This document shows positions 39,042 through 63,004 of a stretch of DNA of 64,000 nucleotides, piece by piece. The translations under genes and the position numbers were made by a program. The notes beneath the pieces are model-generated. The model was not told the DNA's origin. It saw only the letters and a program-made list of their open reading frames with translations, and ran no database searches. The DNA lies in NCBI GenBank assembly GCA_963281255.1, contig OY725503.1, forward strand, positions 372,001-436,000, given 5' to 3'. Source of the DNA: Aphrocallistes beatrix. Its lineage: Eukaryota > Porifera > Hexactinellida > Sceptrulophora > Aphrocallistidae. Each line of letters begins with the position of its first letter. Positions within the stretch are counted from its first letter, which is position 1.

Positions 39042-39395
39042 TGGAATGCTGGTAACCCAAACACTTATTTTTGTATCTTGGATTTTATTTATTTATCTTT
39101 TGAACTAATATTTCGTATATTATTGGAAATCCTTTTTATTCACAAATTATTTTAGTTTTTGATTTTTTTCACCGTCGCGCGATCCTTAATTGTCCGATTT
39201 CTAGCAAAGTTGAAATGCAGACTCTGTTCATGGTGTAAATGTATATTTGATATTGATTTCCTGAATTTCATCATTTCAGTGTTTATAATTAGAATATTTT
39301 CATTTCCACCTTGTGTCGAAAGAGGTAAATTAGGATTATTTTATCAGAAAGGTTTGCTCAACTTTGAATTTACGATTCAACTATTTTGACAAGAC

Positions 39396-40625
39396 ATGGC
39401 TACTCCTAATGCACAGGAACGCGACAGATTCCTGAAACACGTGAGTAGAGTGAGAGAGGAAATAGGAAGGAAGTTCTTTATAGCTCATCAGGTGCTAGAA
39501 GAGAGAGAGACCGAACTGCTATCAGAGTTGGATCAGCTAGAGGAGCGATACAGGGGAGATGCTATTGCTGAACAGATTGAGGACTTGGAAAGAGTGAAAG
39601 AGGTTGAGTTGTCTACATCAAAAGTAAACAAAAACAAAGATATAATAATACAACACGTTTCAGAGTTGGATGACGATGTGAGGAAGCTAAGGGAAGATTG
39701 GGAGAAGGAGAGAGCTAGCATGAGGAGAGGAGAGTTGGTGTGGGATGCAGAGTTGGAAGCTAGATTGAGTGAGTTAGGAGAGATTAGGGTGAGTTCTGTT
39801 TCGCACTATAAGGAAATAGAAAATCCACTGATCGTAGCAGGTACTAACAGTTTAGAGATATCTAAGTCAGCTGGAGTGTTTTATTATCCTTCTTCAATCG
39901 CTATTCATCCTGAAACTAACGATGTTTACGTATGCGATAAATGGAATGATCGTGTCCAAGTCTTTACCAAATCTTTGGAGTTCTCATTCGATTTCAGTGA
40001 AAATATGTCTTATCCAGATGGTATGTGTATCAGTAACAACTCAGTGTATGTTACACAGTATGGCGGTCATTGTCTGAATGAGTACACTGCTGAAGGGAAA
40101 TTCTTGAAGTCAGTCGGGAAATGGGGGAAGAAGAAACTCCAGTTTGTCTATCCTTGTGGTGTTGCTGCCTCCAACAATGAAAATATAATTTATATATGCG
40201 ACCATGGCAATAGTAGAATTCAATGTTTGAACTTGAATCTTACATTCAATTCCATCATTTCAGATATTCCTTTTCCTCTCGACATCAAGATAACAGCTGA
40301 GGAGATAGTAGTGCTGACAGGAGTTTGCATTCGTTACTATAATTACACATATCAACATATCAGGAAGATAATTCTACATGGAGAAGGTGGGCATCTGACT
40401 ATTTCATTCCATTTCTGTCTGGATGTTGAACAGAATATTCTAATAACTGATCGGCAAACTCATTGCGTCCTAATATTTACAAGCAAAGGAGAGCTGATGC
40501 ACAAGTTCGGTAGAGAAGGAACAGGAAGAGGGGAATTATATAAACCTAGAGGAATAGCTGTCGATTCTGAAAATAAAATCATAGTAGCTTCTTTTAATCC
40601 TAACTTCTGTCTTCAGATTTTCTAA
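39396..40625 (+). CDS. Coiled-coil / NHL-repeat protein (TRIM-NHL-like without RING), copy 1, 409 aa
   Basis: Single exon from ATG in MATPNAQERDRFLKHV. Residues 1-140 are a heptad-rich coiled coil (EEIGRKFFIAHQVLEERETE...). Residues about 155-409 form an NHL-type beta-propeller: SIAIHPETNDVYVCDKWNDR, GVAASNNENIIYICDHGNSR and GIAVDSENKIIVAS are NHL blades. TRIM-NHL proteins normally add RING and B-box fingers for ubiquitin ligation; neither is present in this exon and I see none upstream. It may be a substrate- or RNA-binding partner. The 40 bp before the ATG (TTTACGATTCAACTATTTTGACAAGAC) are conserved in all three copies. Confidence 0.85.
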   Translation: MATPNAQERDRFLKHVSRVREEIGRKFFIAHQVLEERETELLSELDQLEERYRGDAIAEQIEDLERVKEVELSTSKVNKNKDIIIQHVSELDDDVRKLREDWEKERASMRRGELVWDAELEARLSELGEIRVSSVSHYKEIENPLIVAGTNSLEISKSAGVFYYPSSIAIHPETNDVYVCDKWNDRVQVFTKSLEFSFDFSENMSYPDGMCISNNSVYVTQYGGHCLNEYTAEGKFLKSVGKWGKKKLQFVYPCGVAASNNENIIYICDHGNSRIQCLNLNLTFNSIISDIPFPLDIKITAEEIVVLTGVCIRYYNYTYQHIRKIILHGEGGHLTISFHFCLDVEQNILITDRQTHCVLIFTSKGELMHKFGREGTGRGELYKPRGIAVDSENKIIVASFNPNFCLQIF

Positions 40626-41631
40626 CTCTCTCTCTTAGTGCGACTCTTCATTAGTTATTCGTTAGGAATCGATTATGTTTATTCTTAGCTGACCAAAATT
40701 TTCTATTTACTCCATGTTCCCATTTTTGTTTTTGTTATTTGAATAGAATATCTAGTATGTTTACCTAAATATTTATCTCCTCTGTTATATAATTATCCCT
40801 CGCCTGGCTAGGTCTCAAAAGTATAAATAGAGAAAATCCCACTTTCATTTTCACTTTCAACATTCCTAGCCAACCGCGGGTTAATTAATCGCGTTATAGA
40901 TTCTGTTGTTGCTAATCCCAATTGGCTTAGAAAGCCAACGAATTTGATAAAATATCCAATTTTCTCATAGTGTCCAGATAATTCCTGATTTAACTACGAC
41001 ACATGAATTTTACTGTACATGGATCTTAGCTCGCTTGAACTGAGAACTGGCGGACACATCGAAATTCTAATTTCATTTCTTATTTATAAGCTCGGAAACC
41101 TAGAATTTCTATTTTTGTGTACATTTACGTACAGAGAACTCGGTTAGTACGTACCCTACATAGGAATCTATATAATAAATTAATTCTGGTTCATAGAAAT
41201 GAGTACGTACTTTCTACTGTATATAAAAGTGGCAATGACGTCATAATTCCGCGATGAGTGGCTTTTGTTTACTCCAGTGTGCCTAAGATCCGCTTTATGT
41301 GGTCAGTTTCGATCGATTCTTTCTAATAATTATTCTATTTTTGGTAAATTAATTGATAGACAATCCTAGTTACCAAAATAATGTATTTTTTATAAATAAA
41401 CTGAAAATTGTTAGATAATTCACCATCCTACGTACATACTTATGCGTGTTGTTTCGCAGATACACATGACACGTGCTAGTTAGTAGTAATACGTCAAGAC
41501 AGGGACTAACTACGTACGTATTAGGCTAATAGAAACTTCATTTAAAAAGATAAATTAGAAGTTTATTCTATCCGAACAACAGTTCTACTAAACTTTGAAT
41601 TTACGTTTCAACTATTTGGAAGTGACAAGAC
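40626..41631. other. Intergenic region duplicated with the NHL gene array
   Basis: The stretch 40745-41100 (ATAGAATATCTAGTATGTTTAC..., AATCGCGTTATAGATTCTG...) recurs after the second NHL gene at about 42975-43240, showing that gene and 3' flank were copied together. No other gene is seen. Confidence 0.7.
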
Positions 41632-42867
41632 ATGGCTAGTCCTTATGTACAAGAAAGTGACATATTCCTGAAACACGTGAGGAGAGTGAGAGAGGAAATA
41701 GAAAGGAAGTTCGCTAGAGCTCATCAGCTGCTAGTGGAGAGGGAGACCGAACTGATATCAAAGTTGGATCAGCTAGAGGCGCGATACAGGGGGGACGATA
41801 TTATCGAACGGATTGACGGCTTGAATAACCTGATAACTCAGTTTTCTAATTTAAAGCTAAACCCAGACAAAGACCTAGTGGTAAAAGAGGTTGCAATGTT
41901 GAATGACCGTGTGAGGACGATAATGGAAGATTGGGAGATGGAAAAAGCTAGCATGAAGAGAGTAGAGTTGGAGTGGGATGCACAGTTGGAATCTAGATTG
42001 ATTGTGTTAGGAGCGATTAGGGTGAGTAATTTTCCGGACTACAAGGAAACTGGGAACCCAATAATCGTAGCTGGTAAACACAGTTATGAGAAATCTACGT
42101 CAGCAGGAGTGTTCTGTAATCCTCGCTCAATCGCTATTCATCCAAAAACAAACAATATTTATGTGTGCGATCATGGAAATAATCGTATCCAAGTCTTTAC
42201 CGAATATTTGGAATTCCTATTGGCTTTCAGCAGTGAGAAGATGTCTTTTCCAGATGGGATGTGCATTAGTAACAACTCAGTCTATGTTACACAGTATGGC
42301 GGCCATTGTCTGAGTGAGTACACTGCTGAAGGTGAATTCTTGAAATCTGTCGGGATATATGGAAAGAAGAAACCCGAATTTGCTTTCCCTCGTGGTGTTG
42401 CTGCCTCCGAAAAGAAAAAGAAAATTTACGTATGTGACAGTGAAAATAATAGAATTCAATGTTTGAACTTAAATCTTACATTCAATTCAATTATTTCTTC
42501 TATTCCTCATCCTATCGACATCAAGACAACAGCTGAGTGGATAGTAGTACTGACGAGAGGAGAACATTGGATCTGTTACTATAACTACGCTCATCAGCTG
42601 ATTAGGAAGGTAATTCAACGTGCAGAAGATAGAAATGTGACTCAGCTATGCCATTTCTGTCTGGATGCTAAACAGAATATTCTAATAACAGATTCGACAG
42701 CTAATTGCGTCATAATATTTTCAAGCAATGGAGAGCTGATACGCAAGTTCGGTAAATATGGGACAGGAAAAGGAGTGCTCTTTACTCCTACAGGAATAGC
42801 TATCGATTCTGAAAACAGAATCATTGTAGCTTCTCAGAATCCTAACTTCTGTCTTCAGTTCTTCTAA
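41632..42867 (+). CDS. Coiled-coil / NHL-repeat protein, copy 2, 411 aa
   Basis: Single exon from ATG in MASPYVQESDIFLKHV. The same layout as copy 1: coiled coil to about residue 140, then NHL blades (SIAIHPKTNNIYVCDHGNNR, GVAASEKKKKIYVCDSENNR, GIAIDSENRIIVAS). It is the most diverged of the three, especially in the coiled coil. No RING or B-box. The propeller probably binds protein or RNA. It lies between copies 1 and 3 on the same strand, so the array arose by tandem duplication. Confidence 0.85.
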   Translation: MASPYVQESDIFLKHVRRVREEIERKFARAHQLLVERETELISKLDQLEARYRGDDIIERIDGLNNLITQFSNLKLNPDKDLVVKEVAMLNDRVRTIMEDWEMEKASMKRVELEWDAQLESRLIVLGAIRVSNFPDYKETGNPIIVAGKHSYEKSTSAGVFCNPRSIAIHPKTNNIYVCDHGNNRIQVFTEYLEFLLAFSSEKMSFPDGMCISNNSVYVTQYGGHCLSEYTAEGEFLKSVGIYGKKKPEFAFPRGVAASEKKKKIYVCDSENNRIQCLNLNLTFNSIISSIPHPIDIKTTAEWIVVLTRGEHWICYYNYAHQLIRKVIQRAEDRNVTQLCHFCLDAKQNILITDSTANCVIIFSSNGELIRKFGKYGTGKGVLFTPTGIAIDSENRIIVASQNPNFCLQFF

Positions 42868-44357
42868 CACTCTCTCCAACTGTTCCTACTCTAGTTATTC
42901 GTTAGGAATCATGTTGACTCTTTCCTTTCCTAAAAATCCTGTTTACTCCCTGTATCCTGTTTTTGTTTTTGTTATTTGAATAGAATCTCTAGTATGTTTA
43001 CCTAAATATTTGTCTCCTCTGTTAATCGCGTTATAGATTCTGTTGGTGGTAATCCCAATTGGCATAGCGAGTTAAATCAACGAATTTGAGAAAATATCCA
43101 ATTTTCTCAAAGTGTCCAGGTAATTCTTGATTTCATTACGACACATGGTTTGTCCTATAAATAGAACTTAGCTCGCTTGAGTGAGACTGGCAAACACATC
43201 GGAATTCTAATTTAAGTCTCTTATTTATGCTCGAAAACCTGGAATTTATAATTTCTGTACATAACACGTGCATATAAAATTGGGAATTACTTCATAATCC
43301 AGCAATGAATGAGCTTTTTTCCGAGACTCGACTTGCTTGAACAAGTCACCAAATACTCCGTCCGGTGTGCCAAAAGTCTTATTGTGACTGGCACTTTGAT
43401 CAATTTGGAACCTCAGTAAATGATTTAATTGCCTAGGATTGTCTGAATTAATTTTGCAATATGGAAGGATAATGATCATAAATAACTTAGTATTTATTTA
43501 CGACTCGAACTTTTAACAGAACTAATTTATGCTATTTACAGTCGACTCCGCTTAATAGGACCACATCGGTCAGAGGAGATTTCGACCTGATTAAACGGAG
43601 AACTGTGTTAACCGAAAATATTTTATATTAGCTTCTATGCGCGAGAAGAATTCGGGTCTTGCCAAAAGTGGTTTGATTAAGCGGAGTCAACTGTAAATGA
43701 CACAAAACTATTTATTTTAACTGTACTAGAATGCCCAGCACTTTTATGGCTTCAGTTACATAGGAAATGGCTGGGAGACATCCGCGATATCGCGGACACT
43801 GTATCCTCAGTGGACATTTAAAAGTTTGTTTTAAATAAATACTAAGTTCTTTCCTATCATTATTCTATTTTATTGTATCCAAGGTAATAAAATCATGAAA
43901 TTTACTGAGGTCACTCATTTGTATTAAGTTACCGCTCCAAGGTACCACCATGTAACTGGAAGAGAATATAAATAACGAAACGAATGCATTTGGAATAAAT
44001 CTATAAAGTAAACCCAATTTTATGGCTTCCCGCCCAAAATGGCTTAAACCGGAAACTTAGCATTTGAATGTTGGCTTTCGTGGGTTTTAACTTTACTATT
44101 TATATAATCTATCTAAATACTTTCATAACAGTTATTCGTCATGCATTCTTAGCTATCGTTATGTCTCATGAATGTGACATGTGATTGTTGATGGTAGTAC
44201 GTAATAGAGTACGTAATAGATGGTAGTGCGTAATAGACAGGCGTTGTATTAGGCTAATTGTAACTTCAGTTCAAAAGAGATAAATTGGAAACCGAGTTTA
44301 TTTTATCAGAACAGTTCTACTCAATATTGATTTACGATTCAACTATTTTGACAAGAC
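42868..44357. other. Intergenic region of the NHL array
   Basis: Begins with a copy of the flank seen after copy 1 (to about 43240) and holds a TA-flanked MITE (43537-43695). The remainder is AT-rich and shows no gene. Confidence 0.55.
43537..43695. mobile_element. TA-flanked MITE, TACAGTCGACTCCGCTTAAT ends
   Basis: TACAGTCGACTCCGCTTAAT at the left and ATTAAGCGGAGTCAACTGTA at the right are 19/20 reverse complements. The TA at each end suits a TA target-site duplication of a pogo/Tigger- or Tc1-type element. It is non-coding. Confidence 0.85.
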
Positions 44358-45593
44358 ATGGCTACTCCTAATGTACAGGAACGCGACAGATTCCTGAAAC
44401 ACGTGAGTAGAGTGAGAGAGGAAATTGGAAGGAAGTTCGCTAGAGCTCATCAGGTACTAGAAGAGAGAGAGACCGAACTGCTATCACAGTTGGATCAGCT
44501 AGAGGAGCGATACAGGGGGAATGCTATTACTGAACAGATCGACGACCTGAATAAACTGAGAGAGGTTCAATTATCCACGTCAAAAGTAAATAACAACAAA
44601 GATCTATTGATGCAACACATTTCAGAGTTGGATGACCGTGTGAGGAAGCTAAGGGAAGATTGGGAGAAGGAGAGAGCTAGCATGAGGAGAGTAGAGTTGG
44701 AGTGGGATGCAGAGTTGGAAGCTAGATTGAATGTGTTAGGAGCGATTAGGGTGAGTTCTGTTCGGGACTATAAGGAAATAGAAAACCCAGTAATTGTAGC
44801 TGGTAAACACAGTGAAGAACCATCTGAGTCAGCTGGAATGTTCTGTAATCCTCGCTCAATCGCTATCCATCCTGAAACAAACAATGTTTATGTATGCGAT
44901 GCTGGGAATGATCGTGTCCAAGTCTTTACCAAATCTTTGGAATTCTTAATTGATTTCAGTGAAGAGATGTCTTATCCATCCGATTTGTGCATTAGTAACA
45001 ACTCAGTGTATGTTACACAGTATTCAGGGCATTGTCTGAATGAGTACACTGCTGAAGGAAACTTCTTGAAGTCAGTCGGGAAAGAAGGAAAGAAAAAACT
45101 CGAATTTATCTTTCCCTGTGGTGTAGCTGCTTCTAACGTTAAAAACAGAATTTACATATGTGACAGTGAAAATAATAGAATTCAGTGTTTGAAATTGAAT
45201 CTTACATTCAATTCAGTGATTTCAGATATTCCTCATCCTCTCGACATCAAGATAACAGCTGAGGAGATAGTAGTGCTGACAAGAGGAGAACATTGGATTC
45301 GTTACTATAATTACACTCATCAGTTGATTAGGAAGATAATTCCATGTGAAGAAAGTGGGTATATGACTAACTCGTATCATTTCTGTCTGGATCTTAAACA
45401 GAATATTCTAATAACCAATGAGTTATCTCATTGCGTGTTCATATACACAAGCAAAGGAGAGCTGATGCACATGTTCGGTAGAGAAGGAACAGGAAGAGGA
45501 GAATTCGACACCCCTAAAGGAATAGCTGTCGATTCTGAAAATAGAATCATAGTAGCTTCTCATAATCCTAACTTCTGTCTGCAGATATTCTAA
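44358..45593 (+). CDS. Coiled-coil / NHL-repeat protein, copy 3, 411 aa
   Basis: Single exon from ATG in MATPNVQERDRFLKHV, very like copy 1 over the coiled coil (shared LDQLEERYRG and EKERASMRR stretches). The NHL blades are intact (SIAIHPETNNVYVCDAGNDR, GVAASNVKNRIYICDSENNR, GIAVDSENRIIVAS). No RING or B-box. AATAAA at about 45709 could serve as the polyadenylation signal. Copies 1 and 3 are closer to each other than to copy 2, so order along the chromosome does not follow similarity. Confidence 0.85.
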   Translation: MATPNVQERDRFLKHVSRVREEIGRKFARAHQVLEERETELLSQLDQLEERYRGNAITEQIDDLNKLREVQLSTSKVNNNKDLLMQHISELDDRVRKLREDWEKERASMRRVELEWDAELEARLNVLGAIRVSSVRDYKEIENPVIVAGKHSEEPSESAGMFCNPRSIAIHPETNNVYVCDAGNDRVQVFTKSLEFLIDFSEEMSYPSDLCISNNSVYVTQYSGHCLNEYTAEGNFLKSVGKEGKKKLEFIFPCGVAASNVKNRIYICDSENNRIQCLKLNLTFNSVISDIPHPLDIKITAEEIVVLTRGEHWIRYYNYTHQLIRKIIPCEESGYMTNSYHFCLDLKQNILITNELSHCVFIYTSKGELMHMFGREGTGRGEFDTPKGIAVDSENRIIVASHNPNFCLQIF

Positions 45594-47554: not shown

Positions 47555-50500
47555 TTAAAATAGGAACAGCTGCTTCCTCAGCGTATCAATGGCTTCAGGA
47601 CATTGAAGACGATCCTTAATATCTATCATTAAGACTCTTCTACGAACTTCTATCATGATATCACTGAAATGATGATGGTCTTTTTCGGCTTGTAGTACAG
47701 TGCAGAAAGTACTGATAAAGACGCTCCCCTTCTTCTGGGTTCGATTGGATTCATATTCTTGTACAGTAGCATGTGCGATGTAAAAATCAACGTGGGTTGC
47801 AACTTTCTCTATGGCTGTTTTAGAAGTTGGAAACGGAAAATCTTTTGACTCTAGAGTTGCATTCTGAGAAATAGCTGTTGTAGGTGGAGCAGGCGTATTG
47901 GGTGGAGGGGACATTTCAGCATGGGGATCAGGCATCTCAAGTTCTCCTCGGTCCTTAGCTTCACCCCTGCATGCTTGTATAATAAATATTTTTGGTTTCC
48001 CACGTAGACCAGGACAATTATTTGGTGTGAAGTAAATTTGAATTTCATTAACATTGATCACTTCATTATCTGTTGTGTAAATCTCATTTTCCTCATTACC
48101 GTGGGACATTATTACACAGAAAAAGACGTCATAATCCTCGTGGTCCATAGTACTATAAGTCTTCAATTCTTTGATAAGTTCTGATTTAGATAAATCTTCG
48201 CATTTTCGCACTATGAAATTCATTTTATCAAATGTATAATGTAAGTTAGAAACATCATGTCCAGAACCTTTTCTCTCATCAAGTATCTCACTATCAAATG
48301 TTCGCATATTAATGATAAGGCAGATACCACAGGGATTGTTACGAATTGGATAGCGAATGAAACCGATCTCTTCTACAGGAATTTCTGAATGCTTGAAACC
48401 CAAAATGAACGATTCATATAGTTTTCTAACTTTGACGTTAGACTGAGTCTCTTGGTTATTCTTCAATACCTTGTAGAACTGATATGCCCAATTTCTTTTA
48501 TTTGAAATATTGTCGACTAAAAGTTCAGCTTTCTTAGTTCCATACAATCGACGAATTTTATCTGTCTCTTCTCCGCCAATTAAATCTTTTTTCTGAAGTG
48601 GTCTTAAGAGTGGCTCCACCTCCAACATCTCCAAAATCTGATTCCGATTATCTTTTAAAAACTTTTCCCCTAATTCACGAGGAATATTTTTGAAAGGATG
48701 GTGTAATTTGTTATTGTAAATTGCCCATGGGATAAATGTCTTATTAGTATTGCAGTAGAAGTGGGTTTCGTCAACTGAATGCGTTGAATAATTTTTAAAA
48801 TACACACAAGGTCTAAGTTTTTCTGAGAATTGTTTGCAAGGACATTCGAGGACAACTTGGGCAATTTTACCAGACAAAATCAGTTCTCTCTGTATATGTG
48901 CTGTCCATTCTTCGAGTTGGAAGATTAGAGAGTGAATGTCAAGACATGAATTCATGAAATCAATTCCTCTAAGTATAACGCGGATAAATGGTTTGTTTTC
49001 AGGAAGAAGAATGACCCAGGTAAGATTTTTCCATCGAAACTCCACACAATCGAAACCAAATTTTGGAGTTGACTTCTCAGTTTCGGCACTCTCGCTGATA
49101 CAGAGAGATAGGAGTGCGAAATAGAAAGATGTGGGTGCCAGACCATCTGAGAAGTAGAGGTAGAGAACTAGATCGCTGTCTTTAGGGTCTATTGGTATAA
49201 CTTCATTGAATAAATATGGAATGTAATATTCCTGTGAGTTTCCATGTCCATAAATTATAATCCCAAACTCCTTCAACAGCTGCACTATCTCAGCTTTAAC
49301 TTTAAAGAGGTTGTTTTCTATTAGAATTGCATCTAGAATATTGTCTGAAAGGATGGCTTCCTTCTCAGCTCTATCAATGTGTTGATCTACTCCTTTAAAA
49401 GATCTCAAATCTTTACAATATTTGGGTAAAACGATGTGTAAAATGACGTTTAACAGGTCTGAGAGAGATTTAACTATAATGTTTTTCCTAAAGAAGAACA
49501 CACCGATGGAATGGAAAAACTCCAGAATTTGTGCATAATCCATCCCACACCCTGTTTTATCCGCGAATTCTTTAATTTCTTTCTCTCCTATGACAGGCTT
49601 AGGTTCCCAAAGAATCTTCAATGCAAGGTCTAGCCAACGGATGGGTAGGTCGAAATCAAAACGAGTTAACTTTGCGTTTTTGTAAATATCTTTTTTCAAC
49701 ATTTCAAATTTTTCTTGTTCCCTATATTTTGCGCTTACAATGTGGAATTTCTTATCTACTATTGACATACAGTTACTTTTCCAAAAGAGCGAGTCTCTAA
49801 TTTCCTTGAAGTAACTATCAGCTATTTCTTGAGGATTCTCTATTTCATCGGATTTGGTAAAGACAATGATGATTCTAGATTTGCACTCTTCATCTTCAGT
49901 GGAGCTTGCTACAGAATAGATGGTCTGAATCCAGGTATTAATCATTTCGAGATAACTTACACTTATTTCACGCTTCTGAATTCTGTCATACCTTTCCCCT
50001 TTGACGACTTGTTCATCAAGGCAATTAGTGAGGTCGACAGCAACTATATACACAGCTCGAGGAGACAGGAACAGAGACTGCATACAGAATAGATAGGATT
50101 GTCCTGCTAGATCCCAAACTGTGAAAAAGTCCATTGGGTCCATCGTGTGCTCGTTTCCCCAATGTTCTCGAATTTTTCTCAACACTGGCAAATCTTGATA
50201 TTTCATAAGATCGGAATGTGACTTTTTTATTTCTGAATATGACTTTTTTGGTTCTGAATGGGTAACTGAGTGACTATTTGAATCAACACCGCTAACTGAT
50301 TCTTCGCTCACAGGCAAATCTGTTACGATTTTTCCATCGTCCTCTTTAGGGGAATCCAACTTAGATTCATCAGACGATTTCGATACTTTGACATTTTTTA
50401 CGGTTATTTGTGCTGCAATATCATCTCTAGTCTTTTGTAATTGTTCTTTAAAGTCTCCACTTTCGCCCCATTCTTTGTTCAGATTTGTAATAAGAATGTT

Positions 50501-51572
50501 AGTTTTTTCAATAAAGTCAGTTGAAATTTCTTTCTCGTCAAAATGTTGACCTTTCAACGCCTTCAACAAACACGTTTTTCCTGCTCCTTCCGACCCCACA
50601 ATCATCAGTCTAAAATACTTTAGCTCTATACTACCTACTTCACAAGCCATCTTGTATCCCTGGACGAATTCATCGCCTCTCTCTCTGATCTCATAAGGAA
50701 GATCTACGTCTAGAAGAAGTATAGGATGTGTGAAACATTTATCTGGGGGTGTAGAAAACTTTTGTGAATTGGGGAGTGACTTGAAATCAAGCATAAATTT
50801 TATTGATGCAATTGTACTGTGTCAATTAAGAATATTCATACTTAGCTGTACAAAGTAGGAATTGCAACCAATTATTTCAATTTGGGTTTACTAGCATTAT
50901 CGAGGCTACATACATAGAGTACGGGAACTAATGTGCATTATATTGAGTCAAAATATTCCATATTATTACTAACAAAAGGGGCTCGCTTTAGACGGACTTT
51001 ACGATCAAAGCATAGAGATACTTTACATCTGATCTCAAATACGTTCATTACGCATTGAAATTTATCAGTTTTGAATCTTTTAACAATGTAATTCCTACTT
51101 AGTGCAGCGCTAAGTGGGAACATTTCAAAACATGTAACTACCATCCTTGACAACCCAAAAATGCGCGTACACCAAGTGAGTATCGTCCATCACGGTGGAA
51201 AGACATTTTAACACTATTTCCCAATTGTATTGCTTACCCAAATTTGAGAGTTCTTCCCTGAATTTGGATGTGAAATCATGTTCTGACATATCTTGAAACT
51301 CTCTCTTATACGCTTCGAGCTTCTGGGCTACTCCGTTTAAATTGATGCTGTTCATTATTTGGCTTAGGTTTGTTAAATCTTTTTGAATAAAATTCTTTTT
51401 AAATAGCAATTTCATCGTATTTTCAAATCCGACTTTTCCATCACTTTCTCCTGAAGAGAAGGTCATACAAATCGCCTGTAATTGGAGAATGGATATTTCA
51501 CTCCTTAGCATTTCGATTAGGTTTTTGACTGATAAGCTCCATGGCACTGAAGTTTGCAAGATCTTAGTACAT
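47555..51572 (-). CDS. DED-ROC-COR-caspase protein, 5' end lost in an assembly gap
   Basis: On the minus strand, exon 51572-51238 joins exon 50709-47555 (phase 1, G/GTAAGC donor, TTCTTCTAG acceptor). The first exon codes for a death-effector-like domain (FENTMKLLFKKNFIQKDLTN...LEAYKREF). The second codes for, in order, a ROC GTPase (P-loop GSEGAGKTCL, WDLAGQ, FTKSD) and a COR-like winged-helix and dimerisation region (LPIRWLDLALKILW..., DLLNVILHIVLP). A complete caspase follows (MSHGNEENEI His motif, IIQACRGE Cys motif, Arg/GSVFI pocket motif). Compared with its + strand homologue at 56916-63004 it has about 70 extra Ser/Lys-rich residues between the P-loop and DLAGQ. The 5' end runs into the N run, where a CARD would be expected. 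Probably a GTP-regulated initiator caspase. Confidence 0.85.
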
Positions 51573-51772
51573 NNNNNNNNNNNNNNNNNNNNNNNNNNNN
51601 NNNNNNNNNNNNNNNNNNNNNNNNNNNNNNNNNNNNNNNNNNNNNNNNNNNNNNNNNNNNNNNNNNNNNNNNNNNNNNNNNNNNNNNNNNNNNNNNNNNN
51701 NNNNNNNNNNNNNNNNNNNNNNNNNNNNNNNNNNNNNNNNNNNNNNNNNNNNNNNNNNNNNNNNNNNNNNNN
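51573..51772. other. Assembly gap (200 N)
   Basis: A run of exactly 200 N interrupts the 5' part of the minus-strand caspase gene. The round length suggests a placeholder of unknown true size. Confidence 0.99.
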
Positions 51773-53526: not shown

Positions 53527-54210
53527 TTGCACCCCAGAGAGCGTCCTAGAGATCACCTCAGAGATGAACTCAGAGATGAACTCAGAGATCACCTCAGAGA
53601 TGAACTCAGAGATCACCCCAGAGAGCGTCCTAGAGATCACTCAGAGATGAACTCAGAGATGAACTCAGAGATCACCTCAGAGATGAACTCAGAGATGAAC
53701 TCAGAGATCACCTCAGAGGTCATCCCAGAGATCACCCATAAAAGTGTCCCAGAGACCACCCCAGAGATCACCTCAGAGATAACCCCAGAGATCACCTCAG
53801 AGATCACTTCAGAGATCACCCCAGAGATCACCTCAGAGATCACCCCAGAGATCACTTCAGAGATAACCCCAGAGATCACCCCAGAGATCACCTCAGAGAT
53901 CACCTCAGAGATCACTTCAGAGATAACCCCAGAGATCACTTCAGAGATAACCTCAGAGATCACCTCAGAGATCACCTCAGAGATAACCCCAGAGATCACC
54001 TCAGAGATAACCCCAGAGATCACCTCAGAGATCACCTCAGAGATCACCTCAGAGATCACTTCAGAGATAACCCCAGAGATCACCTCAGAGATAACCCCAG
54101 AGATAACCTCAGAGATCACCTCAGAGATCACTTCAGAGACCACCCAGAAAAGTGTCCCAGAGATCACCCAGGAGAGCGCCCCGGAGGGAAAAGGTAAATA
54201 TTTGTTTTAA
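53527..54210. repeat. 12-bp minisatellite (GAGATCACCTCA), open on both strands
   Basis: About 50 copies of a 12-bp unit, GAGATCACCTCA/GAGATAACCCCA, fill 53540-54170. On the + strand they read Glu-Ile-Thr-Ser/Pro, on the - strand Val-Ile-Ser-Glu/Gly. A one-base loss within a unit at about 53640 shifts the + frame. Degenerate end units (CCAGAGAGCGTCC, AAAAGTGTCCCAGAG) appear at both ends. GGAAAAG/GTAAAT at 54190-54195 could be a splice donor, so a coding exon is possible, but no start, neighbour exon or family supports it. Confidence 0.8.
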
Positions 54211-54396
54211 ATTAGTGAATTATCGATTAGATACTGCTAATGGGCTAATTTTAAGGCATCTCGCTTTTTAGTTATTGGTACATAATTATTGAATTTCTTC
54301 TAAACAAATCATAAAAAAGTTTGTATTGATTTAAGATTTTAATACTAGGATTGTGTGTGTGTGTGTTTTTATATGCATATTTTCGCACCATTTGAC

Positions 54397-54690
54397 GAAT
54401 TTTGAAAAATGTGCTAGAGACTAGCTTCCAACGGGTGACATGGGGTTTTTAGGGGTGTAGATTTCGAATATCATATTTTCAGATCTATATGATAAACTAT
54501 TTGTTTACTTTTGTTTACATTAGATACATGAAGTAAACAAATCTCAAAAATAGGCTAGAGACTTGCTTCCAACGTTTGACATGGGGTTTTCAGGGATGTA
54601 GATTTCGAATATGATATTTTCAAGTAAATTTGATGATCGATTAGTTTACTTCTGTTTACAATACACTACCCTACCAAAAGTATTCGTACA
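54397..54690. repeat. Two direct copies of a ~140-bp repeat
   Basis: The unit AGACTAGCTTCCAACGGGTGACATGGGG... GATTTCGAATATCATATTTTC... GTTTACTTTTGTTTACA recurs in tandem (from about 54411 and about 54552). Further partial copies lie at 55190-55290 and 58206-58299, the last split by the foldback element at 58300. Confidence 0.75.
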
Positions 54691-55994
54691 CCCCAATAAT
54701 TCCCATACAATTTGTATAAATCAGTAACAGTTGGACTAAATTTGGCTTAAAATACATATTCTACCCACTCGATTTACTCATTGTATAGTGTTTCAAATCA
54801 ATTACTCTATTTAAAAGTTAAATATTTTTGACCCGTGACACCTAGTGCCACCAACGCCATCATATATAGTGGCATTCATTTATGATATGTGGCACAATGA
54901 AGTAAATATTCAAATATTTATGTTTGAAGGAGAGTAATTGAGTTGAAAGACTATACAATGAGTAAATCGAGTGTGTAGGATTCCTATGGGAATGGGATGG
55001 GGATGGGAATTGAAATTTCATTCCCACGGCAACCCTGGTAATTAGACTAATTCGAATGCGTATTATTCGAATTTAGAATCTGATTAGCTATATCCCGTAC
55101 TTTTAGAAGTAACCATCTTCATGAATTCACCCATTTAGTACAATTTGTATGTGGAATAATGAAATGTTGAAATACTTTTGTCCCCTTGGTGTAGCTTCCA
55201 ACGTTTGATATGGGGTTTTAAAAGATGGTAGATTTCGAATATTATATTTTCAGATCAATATGATAAATTTTTGTTTACTTTTGTGTACAATCAGGGACGT
55301 AGTCACGCGTATATGCATTAACCCGACAAAAGTCATTGAACACTTCATTATTTCTCATATAAATAGTAGTAACTTTGGTATATATGTACATAAAGGAAAA
55401 CAGCTAAAATACAACAATTTCAAATACAAATACAATTACGTATTTGACCCAAGCCTGCATGTGGCACGCCTGGCACTCCAAATAATTTGAAAACGTTGGG
55501 TGAATAATTGAATATAAATATTCCACTAGGAGTAATTCGAATGTATTTTGAAAACTATACCCGATTAATTGTATCTCAAACTGTTTAGAAAAATTCGTCT
55601 TCATAAACAGTCCCATTTTAGTACTACTTAGGTCATTTCATAAGTGCTGAGTCGTTATCTGTATTCAGAAGTTATTGGAAATAGAATCTTTTCGATTTGT
55701 CCATTGTATTGCTCTGTGATAGGACAATTATTGTGGTTCCTGCATCCGATTCAAGTAAATCAGTTTAAGATACTGCCTTCGAACGTGAATTTTGAGTTCT
55801 CTAAGGTTGTATTTCATTTCTGAGCAAATTTAGACTAAAACTGATCCTTCCATTAAATTTACTTATAAAAATACATAAATATTGTTTTATTTAAAGTATT
55901 ATGGTTTTAGACTGGGGAATAAATTGTTTTTGAAATGGTATACTGACACTTTTGTCCCATTTTTAGGAGGGGAAAATTAGGAAAAATCCACTAT

Positions 55995-56333
55995 TACAGT
56001 ACACCCTCGCTAATCCGAACAGCTCTGTTCCAATGTTCGAAAAAATTGTTCGGATTAGTGAATTTATTCCGATTAGTGAAATAACACTAATTCAATAGGG
56101 CATTAATTATAATAAATTTGTATTGTTAGAAGATTAAGGATATTATTTCGCTATGATTGCTTATTTAACGAGGTTTCTCAATCTTATTAAAGATAAATTT
56201 AAGTTTATAAACGTTTATTCAAAGCATAGAGGCGAAAAAAATTATAGTATGGGCGTTCGGATTTTAAGAAGGAAGTGTTCGGATTAGCGAGGGTTCGGAT
56301 TGGCGAGGTTCGGACTAGCGAGGGTGTACTGTA
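55995..56333. mobile_element. TA-flanked MITE, TACAGTACACCCTCGCTAAT ends
   Basis: TACAGTACACCCTCGCTAATC at the left and GACTAGCGAGGGTGTACTGTA at the right are near-exact reverse complements with TA at both tips. Inside, GTTCGGATTAG units repeat near both ends. It is 339 bp and non-coding. The CAGT... TIR and TA site fit a pogo/Tigger-type non-autonomous element. Confidence 0.85.
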
Positions 56334-56769
56334 GTAGCAAAATTACTTTTTATCACAGGTTGTTGTACTGAACACCTCCCGTTCATTTCATGACACATAG
56401 GTTCTTAATTATTTGTTTGATCTTGTAATGATCTTATTCCACGAATTCAAAAAAATCACTTACTTTTTTTTCGATCCCTTAAGGAATACGATAGACAAAT
56501 CGAAAATATTATAATTCAACTAATACAGATAACGGCTCAGTACTTATGAAATGGCCTTAGTATTTGCATGTGAAATAAGTGTCGAAATACTTTTGTCCGG
56601 GTAGTTTATGTAGAAAAATGATATGACTTTATCATTAGGAGATAGGCTGGTTTATTTTCTAAATAGGCCCATTTTGATAGTAATTATGGAATATTTCTTG
56701 GTTAACAAAATACATTTACTTACTTGTCAATGTTTACATAATTCCTACTTGGTGCAGCGTTAAGTTGGA

Positions 56770-56915
56770 ATATTTCAACAGCATAAGTTATTCCAAAGTT
56801 TGTTGAATGGAACAATTACTACATCAATGAAATTTATGTATAATTTCAAGCTCCCCTCAGTTCACACAAGTGATCAACGACCCTGTTAAATATTTCACAC
56901 ATTCTCTACTTCTAG
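56770..56915 (+). repeat. Duplicated intron 3' end, copy 1
   Basis: The 146 bp before the CARD-DED exon match 59905-60050, the bases before the ROC exon, over almost their whole length (e.g. CATCAATGAAATTTATGTATAATTTCAAGCTCC and the polypyrimidine ...TACTTCTAG). Both end in a splice acceptor of the same phase. Confidence 0.85.
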
Positions 56916-59900
56916 ATCAGGAGATAGAAGCCTTGATAGAACTTACTAAGGGACTCAAGAGAAAAGATATCAAAAAGATACATAAGCGACTAATGGTACC
57001 AGAAAGTGTTTGTGATGACAAATGTAAAGTAATCGACTTTCTTGAAGCAATGAAAAAATGGGAATACTTCAGATCATACGTTTTCTACAGAGCCCTGGAA
57101 ACCATACGACCGGATTTAGTACCCACAGCAGTATATATCCCGTGGTTATGTAGTACTGTAAAGCCCACACGTCGAACAGAATCGCCATTGTCAGTCATAA
57201 CCTTAATCGAAATGCTAAGGAGTGAAATACCCATTGGTCAAATACAGAGGATTTATAAATCTTATAAGAAGTCTCCAGGAGAAAGTGATGAAGAAATTGG
57301 ATTTGAAAATACGATGAAATTGCTTTTTGAAAATAATTTGATCCAAAAAGATTTAACAAGCCTATGCCAATTAATGAATAACATCAAATTATACGAAGTA
57401 GCCCAGTCTCTCGAAGCGTATAAGAGAGAGTTTAAAGATGTGCCAGACCGTGTATTCAGATCCAATTTCAGGGAAGCATATTTGGGTAAGCAAATTGTAC
57501 AATAGAAAAGAGTGTCTAGATTCCATCGTACTAGATCAGTATTCTTCAACCTTTTCCTGGTTGTGGCACGCTTATATAATTATTTTTCCAAGTCATACCT
57601 TCATATGTTATAGTACAAGCGCGCTTCGCTTGCTTCCGCTGCGCAGATGGCGGAAACTGCGTGTCTGCAGGAGGCGTCTTTTGGCTCCTAAGTATACATT
57701 GGTTAATTGGATTTAGATGTGGAAATTATATTATCGCTTAATAGGAAGTAGTCTATTCGCTATCATTAACATTTGAATATAACATTTGAATGACATTTGA
57801 ATGTCTAACTATCGTGGTTTTCAAGATATAATCCCAACTGACCAAAACATGTTTCCATAGCAACACTGGAATGTTGCAACATTCCATGAAAATATTCAAC
57901 TTTTTCGTATTAACTCATTCACATCTCAGTTCTATGCGAAAAGTTTTACAATAAAAACACTTAGAAGTGCCCTTAAACGACCTCTGAAAATCACCAAATG
58001 TGTTACAAATATAACCTATTGTGCAATCATATGGTGACTGATCAAAATTTTAACAACGGATATGGGTACTTTGACACCATATTTATATATGCTGGTAATA
58101 CATTCCTAAGCTCTATTGCAATAATCTTCTACTGCATCCCTAGTCCAAAATCCACAAGTTACTGTGAGGCCTTACACACAGTAGGCTATGACAAGGGCCT
58201 TTAAGTGTTCGAATATCATATTTTGGGGTCTACATGATAAATTATTTGTTTATTTTTATTTACAATAGATACATAAAGTAAACAAATTTCAAAAATAGAT
58301 GGGTGTTACTTCAGCAGCGTATTCGCCTTAAATGTTAATAGTTAATAAATTAAATGTTATACTATGATTTTAGTCGATTGATCTGATGATACAACGTAGG
58401 GAGGTCTGGACGTTTCATAATCTCAGTTCAAATCCCGAAATATCCAGTGATGACTTAGCAATTTACCTTTTAATTTTTGTCACTGTTTTTCTTGAATATC
58501 TCAAAAGCTATACGAGCTATCGAATCTATCTTAGACACATATGTACTCCAGGTCTGGACGTTTATGTAGTTAAAATTTTAAGTCGATAAGTTAAGATTTA
58601 GCGAATTTATGGTCGATTCAATTTTTCATAGTTCATAAGTGTTACTTTAGCAGCGGATTCGCCGTGTCGCACTTAAATGCTAATAACTTTATGAATTTGG
58701 ATCCGATTTGAAATCTAATCATACCAACGTGTAGAGGAGCTCTGGACGTTTGTATTGTTAAATTTTGAAGCTAATAAGTTAAAATTTGGTGAATTTGTGG
58801 TCGGTTCAATTTTTTACTGGTTTGGCTCGCACACGAGTGTTAGAGGCGGATTCGAAGTCACACTTAATCGCTTATACTCGAAAAGTATTCGTTCTAGATC
58901 AAAAATAATTATACTGGTGGAAAGAAGAGAGTTGGTGTATTTTATTTTTAAGTTCAAATTTTTGAATTTTTACAAAACGAGTTATCAGTGACACATCAAA
59001 TTTAGGTCTCAGTTTTTGGTTAATATCTCGTGAAAGATTTATGATACAAACTTTTCCTTTAAACTACGTTTATTTCAGCCTTGGTATATTTTTGTTTCAA
59101 ATTTCAACTTAAAATATTAATTTTTGAACGAATTATTAATATTTGAATTTTACATTCAATAATGTAATATCACCGTAGTTGTATCTATCAGTAATATCTA
59201 CTTTTAATAACAACAGATCATATTTGTTTAATTCGGGTCCAGCACTAAATTTCCAGCCATTTGATATATATATTGACCATATTTGGAGAATGTTTAGGCT
59301 GGCCGTTCCTAGCAACGGCCAGAAATGTTGAAAAATATCGAGTGACCCCATATCGAGTGACTCCTTGTTCTTCTCGGCTAAGTTCAGTGAGTACGAATAT
59401 GCTAATTAGAACGCTCTAATATCTCATATGTGGAATATATGAAAGTTTTGTGGTAAGCCATAGTGGCAGGTATAGTTGAATGTGATAAAACTTTCATACC
59501 AATTTCATAAAGTTATTAGCATTTAAGTGCGACACGGCGAATCCGCTGCTAAAGTGACACTTATGAACTATGAAAAATTGAATCGACCATACATTCGCTA
59601 AATCTTAACTTATCGACTTAAAATTTTAACTACATAAACGTCCAGATTTCAAATCGGACCTAAAATCATAAAGTTATTAACATTTAAGTGTGACACGGCA
59701 AATACACTGCTGAATCCGCTGCTAAAGTAACACCCATCAAAAATAGACTAGAGAAATTTGTGAAAAATTTTAACATTTTTGTATACGTTAACCGCACAAA
59801 AGTCATTGAACACTTCATTATTTCTCATACGAATAGTGTAACTTTGGTATCTACATAAAGGATTAATGGAAGTCCGACAACTCGTAACATGACTACGTAC

Positions 59901-62900
59901 TTGTAAATTTCAACAACATAAATTATTCCAAAATTTGTTGCGTGGAACAATTACATCAATGAAATTTATGTATAATTTCAAGCTCCTCTCATTTCACAAA
60001 AGTGATCTACGACCCTGTTAAATATTTTACACATTCTATACTTCTTCTAGATCCAAATCTTCCTTGTGAGATCAGAGAGAGAGGCGACGAATTCGTCCGG
60101 GAATACAAGAAGGCTTGTGAAGAAGGTAGTATAGAGCTAAAGCTTTTTAGACTGATGATTGTGGGACCTAAAGAAGCAGGAAAAACGTGTTTGCTGAAGG
60201 CATTGAAAGGTGAAGAATTTGACAAGAATGAAATTTCAACTGACTTTATTGAAACAGCTTGCATTACTATTACAGATCCCAATAAGGATTGGAACGAAAG
60301 TATAAACTTTACAGAACAATTGCAACATGTTAAATCAAATTTTTCCGATATTAAGCATCAAGATTTTCCAGTGTTGAGAGAAATTCCCAAACATTGGACA
60401 AACAAGCACAAGATGGACCCAATAGACTTCTTCACAGTTTGGGATCTAGCAGGACAATCCTATCTATTCTGTATGCACTCTCTGTTCCTGTCTCCTCGAG
60501 CTGTGTATATAGTTGCTGTCGACCTCACTAAACGCCTTGATGAACAAGTCATCGTCAGAGAGGAAAGGAAAGACAGAATTCAGAATCGTGATAAAAGTCT
60601 AAGTTATCTCGAAATGATTAAATACTGGATTCAGACCATCTATTCTGTAGCAAGGTCGACTGAAGATAAAGAGTGTAAATCTAGAATCATCATTGTTTTT
60701 ACCAAATCTGATAAAATAAATAATCCTCAAACAATAGCTGATAGTTATTTTGAGGAAATTAGAGATTCGCTCTTTCGGGAAAGTAACTGTATGTCAATAG
60801 TAGATGAGAAATTCCACATTGTAAGCGCAAAAGACAGGAAGAAAGCAAAATTTGTGATGTTGAAAAAATATATTTACAAAAACGCAAAGTTAACTCGTTT
60901 TGATTCCGACCTACCCATCCGTTGGCTAGACCTTGCATTGAAGATTCTTTGGGATCCTAATCCTGTCATAGGAGAGAAAGAAATTAAAGAATTCGCGGAT
61001 AGAACAGGGTGTGGGATGGATTATGCACAAATTCTGGAGTTTTTCCATTCCATCGGTGTGTTCTTCTTTAGGGAAAACATTATAGTTAAATCTCTCTCAG
61101 ACCTGTTAAACGTCATTTTACACATCATTTTACCCACCAATTGTAATGATTTGAGATATTTTAAAGGAGTAGATCAACACATTGAAAGACCTGAGAAGGA
61201 AGCCATCCTATCAGACAATATTCTAGATGCAATTCTAAGATATAACAACCTCTTTAAAGTTAAAATTGAGATAGTACAGCTGTTAAAGGAGTTTGGCATT
61301 ATAATTTATAGAAACTCGAAGGAATATTACATTCCATATTTATTCAATGAAGTCATACCAATAAACCCTGAAGACAGCGATCTAGTTCTCTACCTCTACT
61401 TCCCAGATGGCCTAGCACCGACTTCTTTCTATTTCGCACTCCTTTCTCTCTGTATCAGCGAGTGTGACAAAACAGAGAATTCTCCAAAACTTGGTTTCAA
61501 TTGTGTGGAGTTCCAATGGGAAAATCTTACCTGGATCATTGATCTTCTTCCTGAACTTAAACCATTTATCCGCATTATAGTTAGAGGAATCGATTTCATA
61601 GATTCACGTCCCGACATTCATTCTCAAATCTTCCAACTCGAAGAATGGACAGCTCATATACAGAAAGAACTGATATTGTCTGGTAAAATTGCCCAAGTTG
61701 TCCTTGAATGTCCTTGCGAACAATTATCAAAAAATCTTATACCTTGTGTGTATTTTGAAAATTATCCAAAGGATCCATTTAAAGAACTCCACTTTTACTG
61801 CAAAAATAAGGAGAAATATATTCCGTGGGCTATTTACAGTAACAAATTATATCATCCTTTCAAATATATTCCTCCTGAATTAGGGGAAATGTTTGTAGAA
61901 CTTCATCGGACTAAGATTTTGGAGGTGTTGGAAGTGGATCCACTCTTAAGACCACTTCAGAAAAAAGGATTGATTAACGGAGAAGAGACAGCTAAAATTC
62001 GTAAATTGAATAAAACTAAGAAAGCTGAATTTTTAGTCGACAATATTTCAAATAGAAGTGACGATTGGGCATATCAGTTCTACAAGATATTGAAGAATGA
62101 TCAAGAGAATCAGTTTAACATCGAAGTTAGAAAACTCTATGAAAAGTTCATTTTAGGTTTCAAGCATTCAGAAATTCCTGTAGAAGACCTCGGTTTCATT
62201 CGCTATCCAGTTCGTAACAGTCCATGTGGTATCTGCCTTATCATTAATATGCAAACATTTGGTGGTAAGATACCTCAGAGAAAAGGTGCTGAATTAGATG
62301 TTTCTAACTTACAAAATACATTTGATAATCTAAGTTTCGAAGTACGTACATTCCCAAATCTTTCTAAATCAAATCTTATCGAAAAATTGATTTATTTTAG
62401 TGAAATGGACCACAAGGATTATGGCGTCTTTTTCTGTATAATAATGTCCCACGGTAATGATAAAAATGAGATCTACACAACAGATAATGAAGCGATCAAT
62501 ATCAATGAAATTCAAGATTACTTCACACCAAAGAATTGTCCTAGTCTACGTGGGAAACCAAAAATATTTATTATACAAGCATGCAGGGGTGAATCAAAGG
62601 ACCGAGGACAACCTGAGATACCTGATACACTCAATCCACCCAGTACACCTAGTACACCTAAAATACCTGCTCGAACTAGCGGAAGTATTTCTCATGATGA
62701 AAATCTAAGTTCAAAAGATTCTGATATTCCACTTTCTGAAAGAACCATGGAGAAAGTTGCAACCCACGTTGATTTCTATATCGCACATGCTACTTTTCAT
62801 GGATATGTATCCTATCGAAGCCGGTACAAGGGGAGCGTCTTTATCAGTACTTTATGTGAAGTACTACAAGTCGAAAAATACAACCATCATTTCAGTGATA

Positions 62901-63004
62901 TCATGATAGAAGTACGTAAAAGAGTCGCAATGATAGATCATTATGCTTATCTTCAATGTCCAGAAGGAATTGATACGTTGAGAAAGCAACTGTTTATATT
63001 TTAA
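56916..63004 (+). CDS. CARD-DED-ROC-COR-caspase protein, at least 1,174 aa (first exon not found)
   Basis: Exon 56916-57485 joins exon 60051-63004 (ATTTG/GTAAGC donor, CTTCTAG acceptor, phase 1). The first exon opens with a CARD-like bundle (EALIELTKGLKRKDIKKIHK...), then a DED-like bundle (FENTMKLLFENNLIQKDLTS...LEAYKREF). The second has a ROC GTPase (GPKEAGKTCL P-loop, WDLAGQ, FTKSD) and a COR-like region. A complete caspase ends the chain: catalytic His at codon 62450-62452 (MSHGN), Cys at 62582-62584 (IIQACRGE), and YVSYRSRYKGSVFI with the pocket Arg. The CARD-DED exon is phase 1-1, so a short upstream first exon ending in phase 1 is needed and I could not place it. By family knowledge ROC-COR modules are GTP-controlled dimerisation switches and CARD/DED drive filament assembly; combined with caspase this predicts an induced-proximity initiator protease. 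Confidence 0.86.
57605..57690. repeat. ACAAGCGCGCTTCGCTTGCT element
   Basis: GC-rich block ACAAGCGCGCTTCGCTTGCT followed by CGCTGCGCAGATGGCGGAAAC and GTCTGCAGGAGGCG. Copies lie at 10121-10195 and 63139-63205, with a short palindromic form at 2918-2938. It probably folds as a double hairpin. Confidence 0.6.
58289..58299 (+). repeat. Target-site duplication, left copy
   Basis: TCAAAAATAGA directly precedes the foldback element and recurs exactly at its right end (59737-59747). Confidence 0.8.
58300..59736. mobile_element. 1,437-bp foldback DNA transposon with 11-bp TSD (Mutator-like size)
   Basis: The ends TGGGTGTTACTTCAGCAGCG and CGCTGCTAAAGTAACACCCA are 19/20 reverse complements. Second-level arms at about 58555-58702 and 59500-59645 match over about 145 bp (e.g. 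CAGCGGATTCGCCGTGTCGC and its inverse). An exact 11-bp direct repeat flanks it, and the flanks rejoin to a repeat whose intact form exists at 54.5 kb. No transposase is present. TSD length suits Mutator-type elements (9-11 bp), but the superfamily is an inference. It sits in the intron of the CARD-DED-ROC-COR-caspase gene. Confidence 0.85.
59737..59747 (+). repeat. Target-site duplication, right copy
   Basis: TCAAAAATAGA, identical to 58289-58299. Confidence 0.8.
59905..60050 (+). repeat. Duplicated intron 3' end, copy 2
   Basis: Matches 56770-56915. It supplies the acceptor for the ROC-COR-caspase exon; the minus-strand homologue has a diverged version before its own ROC exon (50710-50800). 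Confidence 0.85.

Follow-up and report, generated by a model that had tools for sequence, protein, structure and literature searches.

A predicted tandem-DED, ROC-COR, CARD and caspase chain encoded in a sponge genome

Introduction

Can a caspase and the nucleotide-binding platform that activates it be one and the same protein? In well-studied animal systems, a platform protein recruits a separate caspase. A different arrangement is suggested by a gene at positions 56916..63004 (+) of a 64,000-nucleotide stretch of Aphrocallistes beatrix DNA, the window analysed here. An original prediction made from the letters of this window had read the gene, hereafter gene A, as a sensor, a GTPase switch and a protease joined in one chain, with the domain order CARD, DED, ROC, COR and caspase. 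We compared gene A with the genome to which it belongs (100.5 Mb in 28 contigs, labelled C1 to C28, the window contig C17 measuring 4.07 Mb), with database proteins and with structural models. The predicted domain order is tandem DED, ROC, COR, CARD and caspase.

Results

The features of gene A are as follows.

56772..56915 (+): 3' end of the upstream intron with acceptor TTCTAG; direct-repeat copy 1, 90% identical over 142 nt to 59907-60045
56916..57485 (+): tandem-DED exon, 570 nt, symmetric phase 1-1, stop-free frame
56915..57154 (+): DED lobe 1, exon residues 1-80, charge triad D18-R65-P-D67-L68
57179..57454 (+): DED lobe 2, exon residues 89-180
57486..60050 (+): intron, 2565 nt, GTAAGC...TTCTAG
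59907..60050 (+): direct-repeat copy 2 (same repeat as 56772..56915) and acceptor of the ROC exon
60051..63004 (+): ROC-COR-CARD-caspase exon, 984 residues; residue 1 is the split codon starting at 60050; stop codon TAA at 63002-63004
60131..60904 (+): ROC GTPase domain, residues about 28-285; G1 at 60164-60187, G3 at 60443-60457, G4 at 60698-60712
60905..61849 (+): COR-like region, residues 286-600
61874..62167 (+): CARD, residues 609-706, Pfam stretch 615-686
62204..63001 (+): caspase domain; His801 at 62450-62452, Cys845 at 62582-62584, pocket Arg744 at 62279-62281 and Arg923 at 62816-62818
62591..62767 (+): p20/p10 linker with the candidate self-cleavage aspartates EIPD, SSKD and KDSD

From ROC through caspase, a single frame (59963-63001) stays open for 1013 codons. 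The tandem-DED exon is directly preceded by TTCTAG and directly followed by GTAAGC. Because both boundaries at the junction 57485/60051 are in phase 1 (split codon G/AT), the two exons join in frame, as had been proposed. In support of this, the donor TTGG/GTAAGC, the acceptor TTCTTCTAG/ and the phase all recur at the same places in two tandem paralogs, B and C, and a third, paralog D, has the acceptor of the ROC exon in common with gene A. Long single-exon genes of this kind fit the gene structure of the glass sponge Aphrocallistes vastus, for which 19,578 genes and 12,409 single-exon transcripts were reported (PMC10282587).

The gene A intron contains a 148-nt inverted repeat (58553-58700 / 59499-59646, 98% complementary). 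This repeat is possibly a foldback element and could account for the greater length of the intron in gene A than in paralog B (528 nt). Just upstream of gene A, a 12-bp tandem repeat of about 50 copies (window 53548-54148) keeps its frame open, encoding E-I-T-S/P repeats. No RNA gene scored above thresholds in the 64-kb window.

The N-terminal exon was modelled by AlphaFold2 as a tandem DED with a pLDDT (predicted local distance difference test) of 86.6. When this model was used in a structure search, the first 24 of the 50 listed rows were DED proteins and row 25 was ASC, and the modelled exon is assigned to the DED subtype of helical death folds. A D/E-RxDL charge triad serves as a DED criterion (PMC3877032, PMC4558505). 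Lobe 1 has it in all ten aligned rows, with D or E at position 18 and R, D and L at positions 65, 67 and 68. Sequence comparison with known DEDs is less clear: the profile of lobe 2 matches two DED-caspases with an hhalign E of 5.8e-4, that of lobe 1 with 0.047. In the genome as a whole, Pfam DED gave eight matches (best E 3.9e-6), all below the cut-off, seven of which fall within tandem-DED modules. The first bundle had been called CARD-like. This assignment is not supported, since the structural matches are DED proteins and the DED charge triad is present; on this evidence the bundle is lobe 1 of a tandem DED.

The ROC domain of gene A scores 42.8 bits against Pfam PF08477 (cut-off 27), and a motif scan recovered G1 (GPKEAGKT), G3 (DLAGQ) and G4 (FTKSD). 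A direct Pfam match to COR-A is weak, appearing in one of eight family members at E 0.02. A profile of these eight members, however, aligns with the database protein P0017, which has a Pfam COR-A domain, over 532 columns with an hhalign E of 5.6e-23, and the COR part alone, with ROC removed, gives 6.8e-6 as compared with 0.037 or worse in eight column shuffles. The sequence comparison thus lends moderate confidence to a COR directly C-terminal to ROC.

Between COR and caspase lies a CARD that had escaped the first reading (PF00619, 29.3 bits, cut-off 23.9) and is modelled with a pLDDT of 79-87 in blocks 611-680. The caspase itself matches Pfam PF00656 (Peptidase_C14) with an E of 8.9e-53, and its catalytic His (MSHG) and Cys (QACRG) as well as two S1-pocket Arg align with the corresponding residues of caspase-3. 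A structure search with the model of the ROC-to-caspase exon returned caspases throughout the listed matches, and gene A has the caspase fold. Judging from its sequence, the p20/p10 linker could be cut by the protein itself at the aspartates listed above. The AlphaFold2 model of the ROC-to-caspase exon varies in quality (mean pLDDT 56.2), its good parts being much of COR, the CARD and the large subunit of the caspase.

Taken together, the ROC domain with three nucleotide motifs and the full caspase with His, Cys and pocket Arg had been called correctly, and the COR-like region holds at moderate strength through profile comparison. Structure prediction, which had been named as a check on the CARD, DED and COR calls, supported a tandem DED and no CARD at the N-terminus; it modelled the CARD before the caspase and much of COR with good confidence and ROC poorly.

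Fusion of ROC to a caspase extends beyond gene A. A search with the ROC-to-CARD part combined with a caspase match found ten ROC-caspase loci in the genome, namely four on C17, two each on C7 and C18 and one each on C13 and C1, in addition to a decayed copy at C7 4236578-4237705 and one short stop-containing match on C13. Pfam detects CARD in four of the nine ROC-caspase frames scanned (A, B, D and the C18:3319 kb frame). Paralog B lies in the window:

47558..50709 (-): ROC-COR-CARD-caspase exon of paralog B, stop-to-stop frame 47558-50821
50710..51237 (-): intron of paralog B, 528 nt; donor, acceptor and phase as in gene A
51238..51572 (-): visible 3' part of the tandem-DED exon of paralog B, 63% identical to the gene A exon over residues 91-187

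The first half of the tandem-DED exon of paralog B is hidden by a 200-N assembly gap (51573-51772). Paralog C, which has a tandem-DED exon, is located at C17:447-451 kb and paralog D at C17:439 kb.

Protein database searches yielded 19 and 16 matches, each drawn from 7995 candidates sharing most words, a procedure by which relatives may be missed. Among the matches listed, precomputed annotation places NACHT, Roc and caspase together in eight proteins and adds CARD in seven of these; both of the two proteins that we rescanned contain all four. The same four domains occur in one 1739-aa frame at C18:3319 kb. P0032 is identical to the C18 copy of the same genome over the tree region; the other seven proteins differ. 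P0036, a protein of 1736 aa named only 'Caspase-3-like' and likewise made up of NACHT, Roc, CARD and caspase, comes from Oopsacas minuta, a hexactinellid (PMC10280926). Two P-loops, G3, G4, His, Cys and the pocket motif are kept in 8/8 proteins of this group, and LRR (leucine-rich repeat) matches are weak. The p20/p10 linker contains [IV]QTD in seven of the eight (shuffled chance at most 1.5% each, the eight being related and hence not independent) and IQPD in the eighth. A maximum-likelihood tree of 23 rows groups the C17 copies and one more database protein in one clade (100/100), separate from the NACHT clade (99/99). The claim that a GTPase switch and a protease are fused in one predicted chain is therefore upheld by ten loci and a separate NACHT-ROC-caspase group.

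Some further observations concern these relatives. The locus at C18:3052 kb has an extra partial caspase-like stretch N-terminal to ROC, and P0038 groups with this locus in the tree. Six other database proteins (P0009, P0011-P0015) combine a caspase domain with Pfam PF15009, the STING family. In the mitochondrial COX1 gene on contig C28, TGA stands for Trp, conserved Ser positions have AGA and Ile positions have ATA. A mitochondrial code with AGR as Ser is hexactinellid, and the genome looks hexactinellid both by this code and by Oopsacas minuta as the best-named relative of the gene family.

What does the tandem DED of gene A share with other proteins of the genome? A genome search for the module scored 150 of 181 candidates, the gene A exon and two cluster paralogs included, and a search for NACHT gave 94 scored matches among 176 candidates. 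Of the 94 NACHT matches scored, 88 lie no more than 1.5 kb from a tandem-DED match. Among the matches scored, the NOD-like receptors (NLRs) of this genome thus usually begin with the tandem DED. Conversely, a scored NACHT lies within 1.5 kb of 88 of the 150 tandem-DED matches. Frames of at least 900 aa hold 90/150 of these matches and frames of 170-300 aa hold 44/150. NACHT was found in both tandem-DED NLR frames scanned and in 9/9 matches of a search with an NLR query, which favours NLR-sized proteins; the NLR profile has ribonuclease-inhibitor-type LRRs at its C-terminal end.

Pfam found no NACHT, LRR or NB-ARC in gene A. Its tandem DED is therefore better read, on sequence grounds, as a docking module in common with the NLRs than as a sensor, and a sensor in the same chain is not supported for gene A. 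For NB-ARC, an exon-by-exon search of the genome with prokaryotic controls gave 0 matches among 14 candidates scored; because exons are read singly and the controls are prokaryotic, an intron-rich Apaf-1 gene could be missed. Bcl-2 had one match in the genome, below the cut-off, and gasdermin none, a negative that is uninformative as its controls gave no match either. Between 420 and 900 kb on C19, 19 tandem-DED matches without a nearby scored NACHT occur in frames of 191-237 aa, two of them with an internal stop; possibly these encode adaptors or decoys.

Elsewhere in the window, six small single-exon caspase frames of 252-284 aa follow each other on the (+) strand (1044-1799, 3841-4644, 7089-7883, 8944-9795, 14615-15376 and 16085-16882), three of which match the pattern QAC[RQS]G. 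Another caspase match crosses the left window edge, and C17:338-448 kb holds 25 of the 58 caspase matches of the genome. The window further contains a single open frame (17438-25918) that spans 2827 aa and matches fibronectin type III, and three NHL-repeat beta-propeller frames (39390-40622, 41626-42864 and 44352-45590). Caspase and NHL repeats stand in one frame in three stretches elsewhere in the genome.

Discussion

We regard gene A as a putative initiator-type caspase with its own activation platform, which NLRs would recruit through DED contacts and in which ROC-COR and CARD would hold the caspases together. In our judgement the chances of this reading are about even. Tandem-DED NLRs would oligomerise on sensing a microbial or damage signal, and their DEDs would then seed an assembly that takes in the tandem DED of gene A by like-with-like contacts. 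ROC-COR of Roco proteins dimerises in a nucleotide-dependent manner; in gene A it could act as a dimeriser or timer that depends on nucleotide, and the CARD beside the protease could offer a second contact surface. Brought into proximity, the caspase domains would be activated through self-cleavage at aspartates of the p20/p10 linker, and cell death would follow. We infer these steps, the direction of signalling and the outcome from the behaviour of DED, CARD, ROC-COR and caspase elsewhere.

Several observations weigh against this interpretation. Within the N-terminal module, lobe 2 lacks RxDL on inspection, Pfam DED gives no match to the gene A exon at E<=5, and the match of the lobe 1 profile to the two DED-caspases (E 0.047) stands close to its shuffles (0.10 and worse). 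ROC (pLDDT below 50 in residues 24-224), much of residues 501-600 and the linker/p10 end are poorly modelled. The linker of gene A contains neither [IV]QTD nor IQPD. As to the start of the gene, a short ATG exon with a phase-1 donor was sought in 54200-56915 and none was convincing; the sequence around paralogs C and D, scanned in the same way, contained nothing common or convincing. One possibility is that a trans-spliced leader supplies the start, as such a leader has been reported in Aphrocallistes vastus (PMC10282587). The related loci are not uniformly intact either. Paralog C is a pseudogene, interrupted by a premature TAA in its ROC exon and by stops in its caspase match. In paralog D, G3 is altered, the pocket-Arg motif is missing and no tandem-DED match was found between it and gene A; the caspase at C7:525 kb is split between two frames. 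Pfam CARD was not found in five of the nine frames scanned (C1, C13, C18:3052 and two on C7). Among the tandem-DED matches, 62/150 are without a scored NACHT nearby, the NACHT list comprising 94 of 176 candidates. Finally, the ratio of nonsynonymous to synonymous substitution rates (dN/dS) of the ROC-to-caspase exon is 0.94 (A-B), 0.85 (A-D) and 0.72 (B-D), values that fit rapid diversification and weak constraint alike.

The best of the competing explanations, which we nevertheless consider unlikely, is that the gene chiefly yields ROC-COR-CARD-caspase and leaves out the tandem DED, either by skipping of the symmetric exon or by a choice between the two similar acceptors, made in cis or with a trans-spliced leader. 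NLRs would then not recruit the protein, and ROC-COR and CARD alone would control the protease. The two acceptors follow copies of one duplicated stretch (90% over 142 nt), so that the exon may be skipped or another start used, and the 570-nt phase 1-1 exon can be skipped without a change of frame. Moreover, no tandem-DED match was found at paralog D or in the stretches around the C7 and C13 loci, and a trans-spliced leader is on record for a glass sponge (PMC10282587). In contrast, three of the four tandem paralogs keep the tandem-DED exon, its frame and its donor, paralog B with half of the exon visible. A tandem-DED match at C13:4702948-4703448 (+) in a 219-aa frame, about 4 kb upstream of the ROC-caspase locus on C13, is possibly the upstream exon of that locus.

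Two further explanations concern the fast divergence of the C17 copies, which was followed in pairwise comparisons of A, B and D over 943-978 aligned codons with 394-460 substitutions. According to the first, which we hold to be improbable, the protein is a signalling scaffold whose caspase domain serves mostly for regulation or as a decoy, in the manner of c-FLIP. It would agree with the fast evolution of CARD and p20 (dN/dS 0.77-1.56 by segment and pair, as compared with 0.48-1.03 for p10), with the partial caspase-like stretch before ROC at a related locus and with the absence of QAC[RQS]G from three of the six small caspase frames of the window. Yet gene A retains His and Cys of the active site as well as the two pocket arginines, and His, Cys and pocket motifs are intact in all eight proteins of the NACHT group. 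For CARD-p20, positive selection is not supported: dN exceeds dS in all three pairs, although not significantly (bootstrap fraction with dN<=dS 0.058, 0.138 and 0.434).

According to the second, to which we likewise give little credence, the duplicates in the C17 tandem array are in decay and do little, and the work is done by the conserved NACHT-ROC-caspase gene at another place in the genome. The stops in paralog C and the overall dN/dS of 0.72-0.94, without a significant excess of dN over dS, point in this direction. However, not a single stop is seen in A, B or D where about 20-22 per pair would be expected without constraint, so their open frames are not due to chance. In addition, ROC-COR is constrained in A-D and B-D, with dN<=dS in 99.6% and 100% of bootstraps, and less clearly in A-B (92.3%). 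From these sequence comparisons, we read the fast divergence as probable fast diversification of working genes, with weak constraint as the other possibility.

That neighbouring genes were read as one, or that the assembly is chimeric, has a negligible probability, with only the assembly gap in paralog B in its favour: the ROC-to-caspase part is a single uninterrupted 1013-aa frame, the splice sites are conserved, and the fusion is not a splice or assembly artefact, because similar ones exist at further loci and in proteins of the database that come from separate contigs.

More tentatively, and with a probability somewhat short of even, glass sponges may run apoptosome or inflammasome logic largely in cis. 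A conserved NACHT-Roco-CARD-caspase core would replace an Apaf-1-type partner, in the C17 tandem cluster the tandem DED of the NLRs would stand where the core protein has NACHT, and about ninety or more tandem-DED NLRs could converge on a few GTPase-gated caspases. On this reading, a Roco switch would gate caspase activation through its GTP state. An early-branching animal group couples platform and protease parts in a different way, in one predicted chain with relatives in other database assemblies. The DED module common to the caspase and many NLRs suggests what the NLR repertoire of glass sponges signals to, and a short route from sensing to cell death. It also makes gene A a compact system for asking whether a Roco GTPase can gate a caspase.

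A description of ROC-COR fused to a caspase was not found among the papers listed from the open literature at the level of titles and the beginnings of abstracts, a scope that leaves aside preprints and most subscription journals. By term search, 'caspase' and 'NLR' are absent from the main texts of two glass-sponge genome papers (PMC10282587, PMC10280926), and a figure legend on Dysidea avara NLRs names CASc (caspase) and COR among the domains drawn (PMC12909245). The original prediction, which knew of no described protein with this domain order, thus agrees with the literature searches; it has to be qualified by the Oopsacas minuta database record, in which NACHT, Roc, CARD and caspase are already found together.

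How does gene A compare with known systems? It resembles Apaf-1/caspase-9 and CED-4/CED-3 in that a CARD adjoins the caspase and a nucleotide-binding platform is coupled to it. In contrast to these pairs, platform and protease of gene A are in one chain, and the platform is ROC-COR (in the sister group NACHT plus ROC-COR) instead of NB-ARC. With Roco proteins such as LRRK2 and DAPK1 it has in common a ROC followed by a COR in a large multidomain chain; its output domain is a caspase, whereas theirs is a kinase or TIR. Sea-anemone Roc/COR proteins with TIR are further multidomain chains containing ROC-COR (PMC5094078). Receptor or adaptor parts are fused directly to a caspase in the amphioxus shortcut proteins (TNFR-caspase, LRR-caspase and DED-NACHT), for which no ROC-COR switch was found, the word 'GTPase' being absent from the main text (PMC2575513). 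In bacterial conflict systems, caspase-like peptidases are coupled to NTPase switches, a likeness by description only, and the GTPases or ATPases are different ones and often encoded by separate genes (PMC7159879, PMC8195603). Caspase-8 and -10, which are recruited by FADD, share the N-terminal tandem-DED fold and the C-terminal catalytic caspase (PMC4558505), while gene A has ROC, COR and CARD in between and a DED module that is that of the NLRs. Closest is the Oopsacas minuta 'Caspase-3-like' protein P0036 with its seven similar proteins, in which ROC and caspase are likewise in one chain, with CARD in 7/8. These proteins begin with NACHT where gene A, which belongs to a separate tandem cluster in the tree, begins with a tandem DED.

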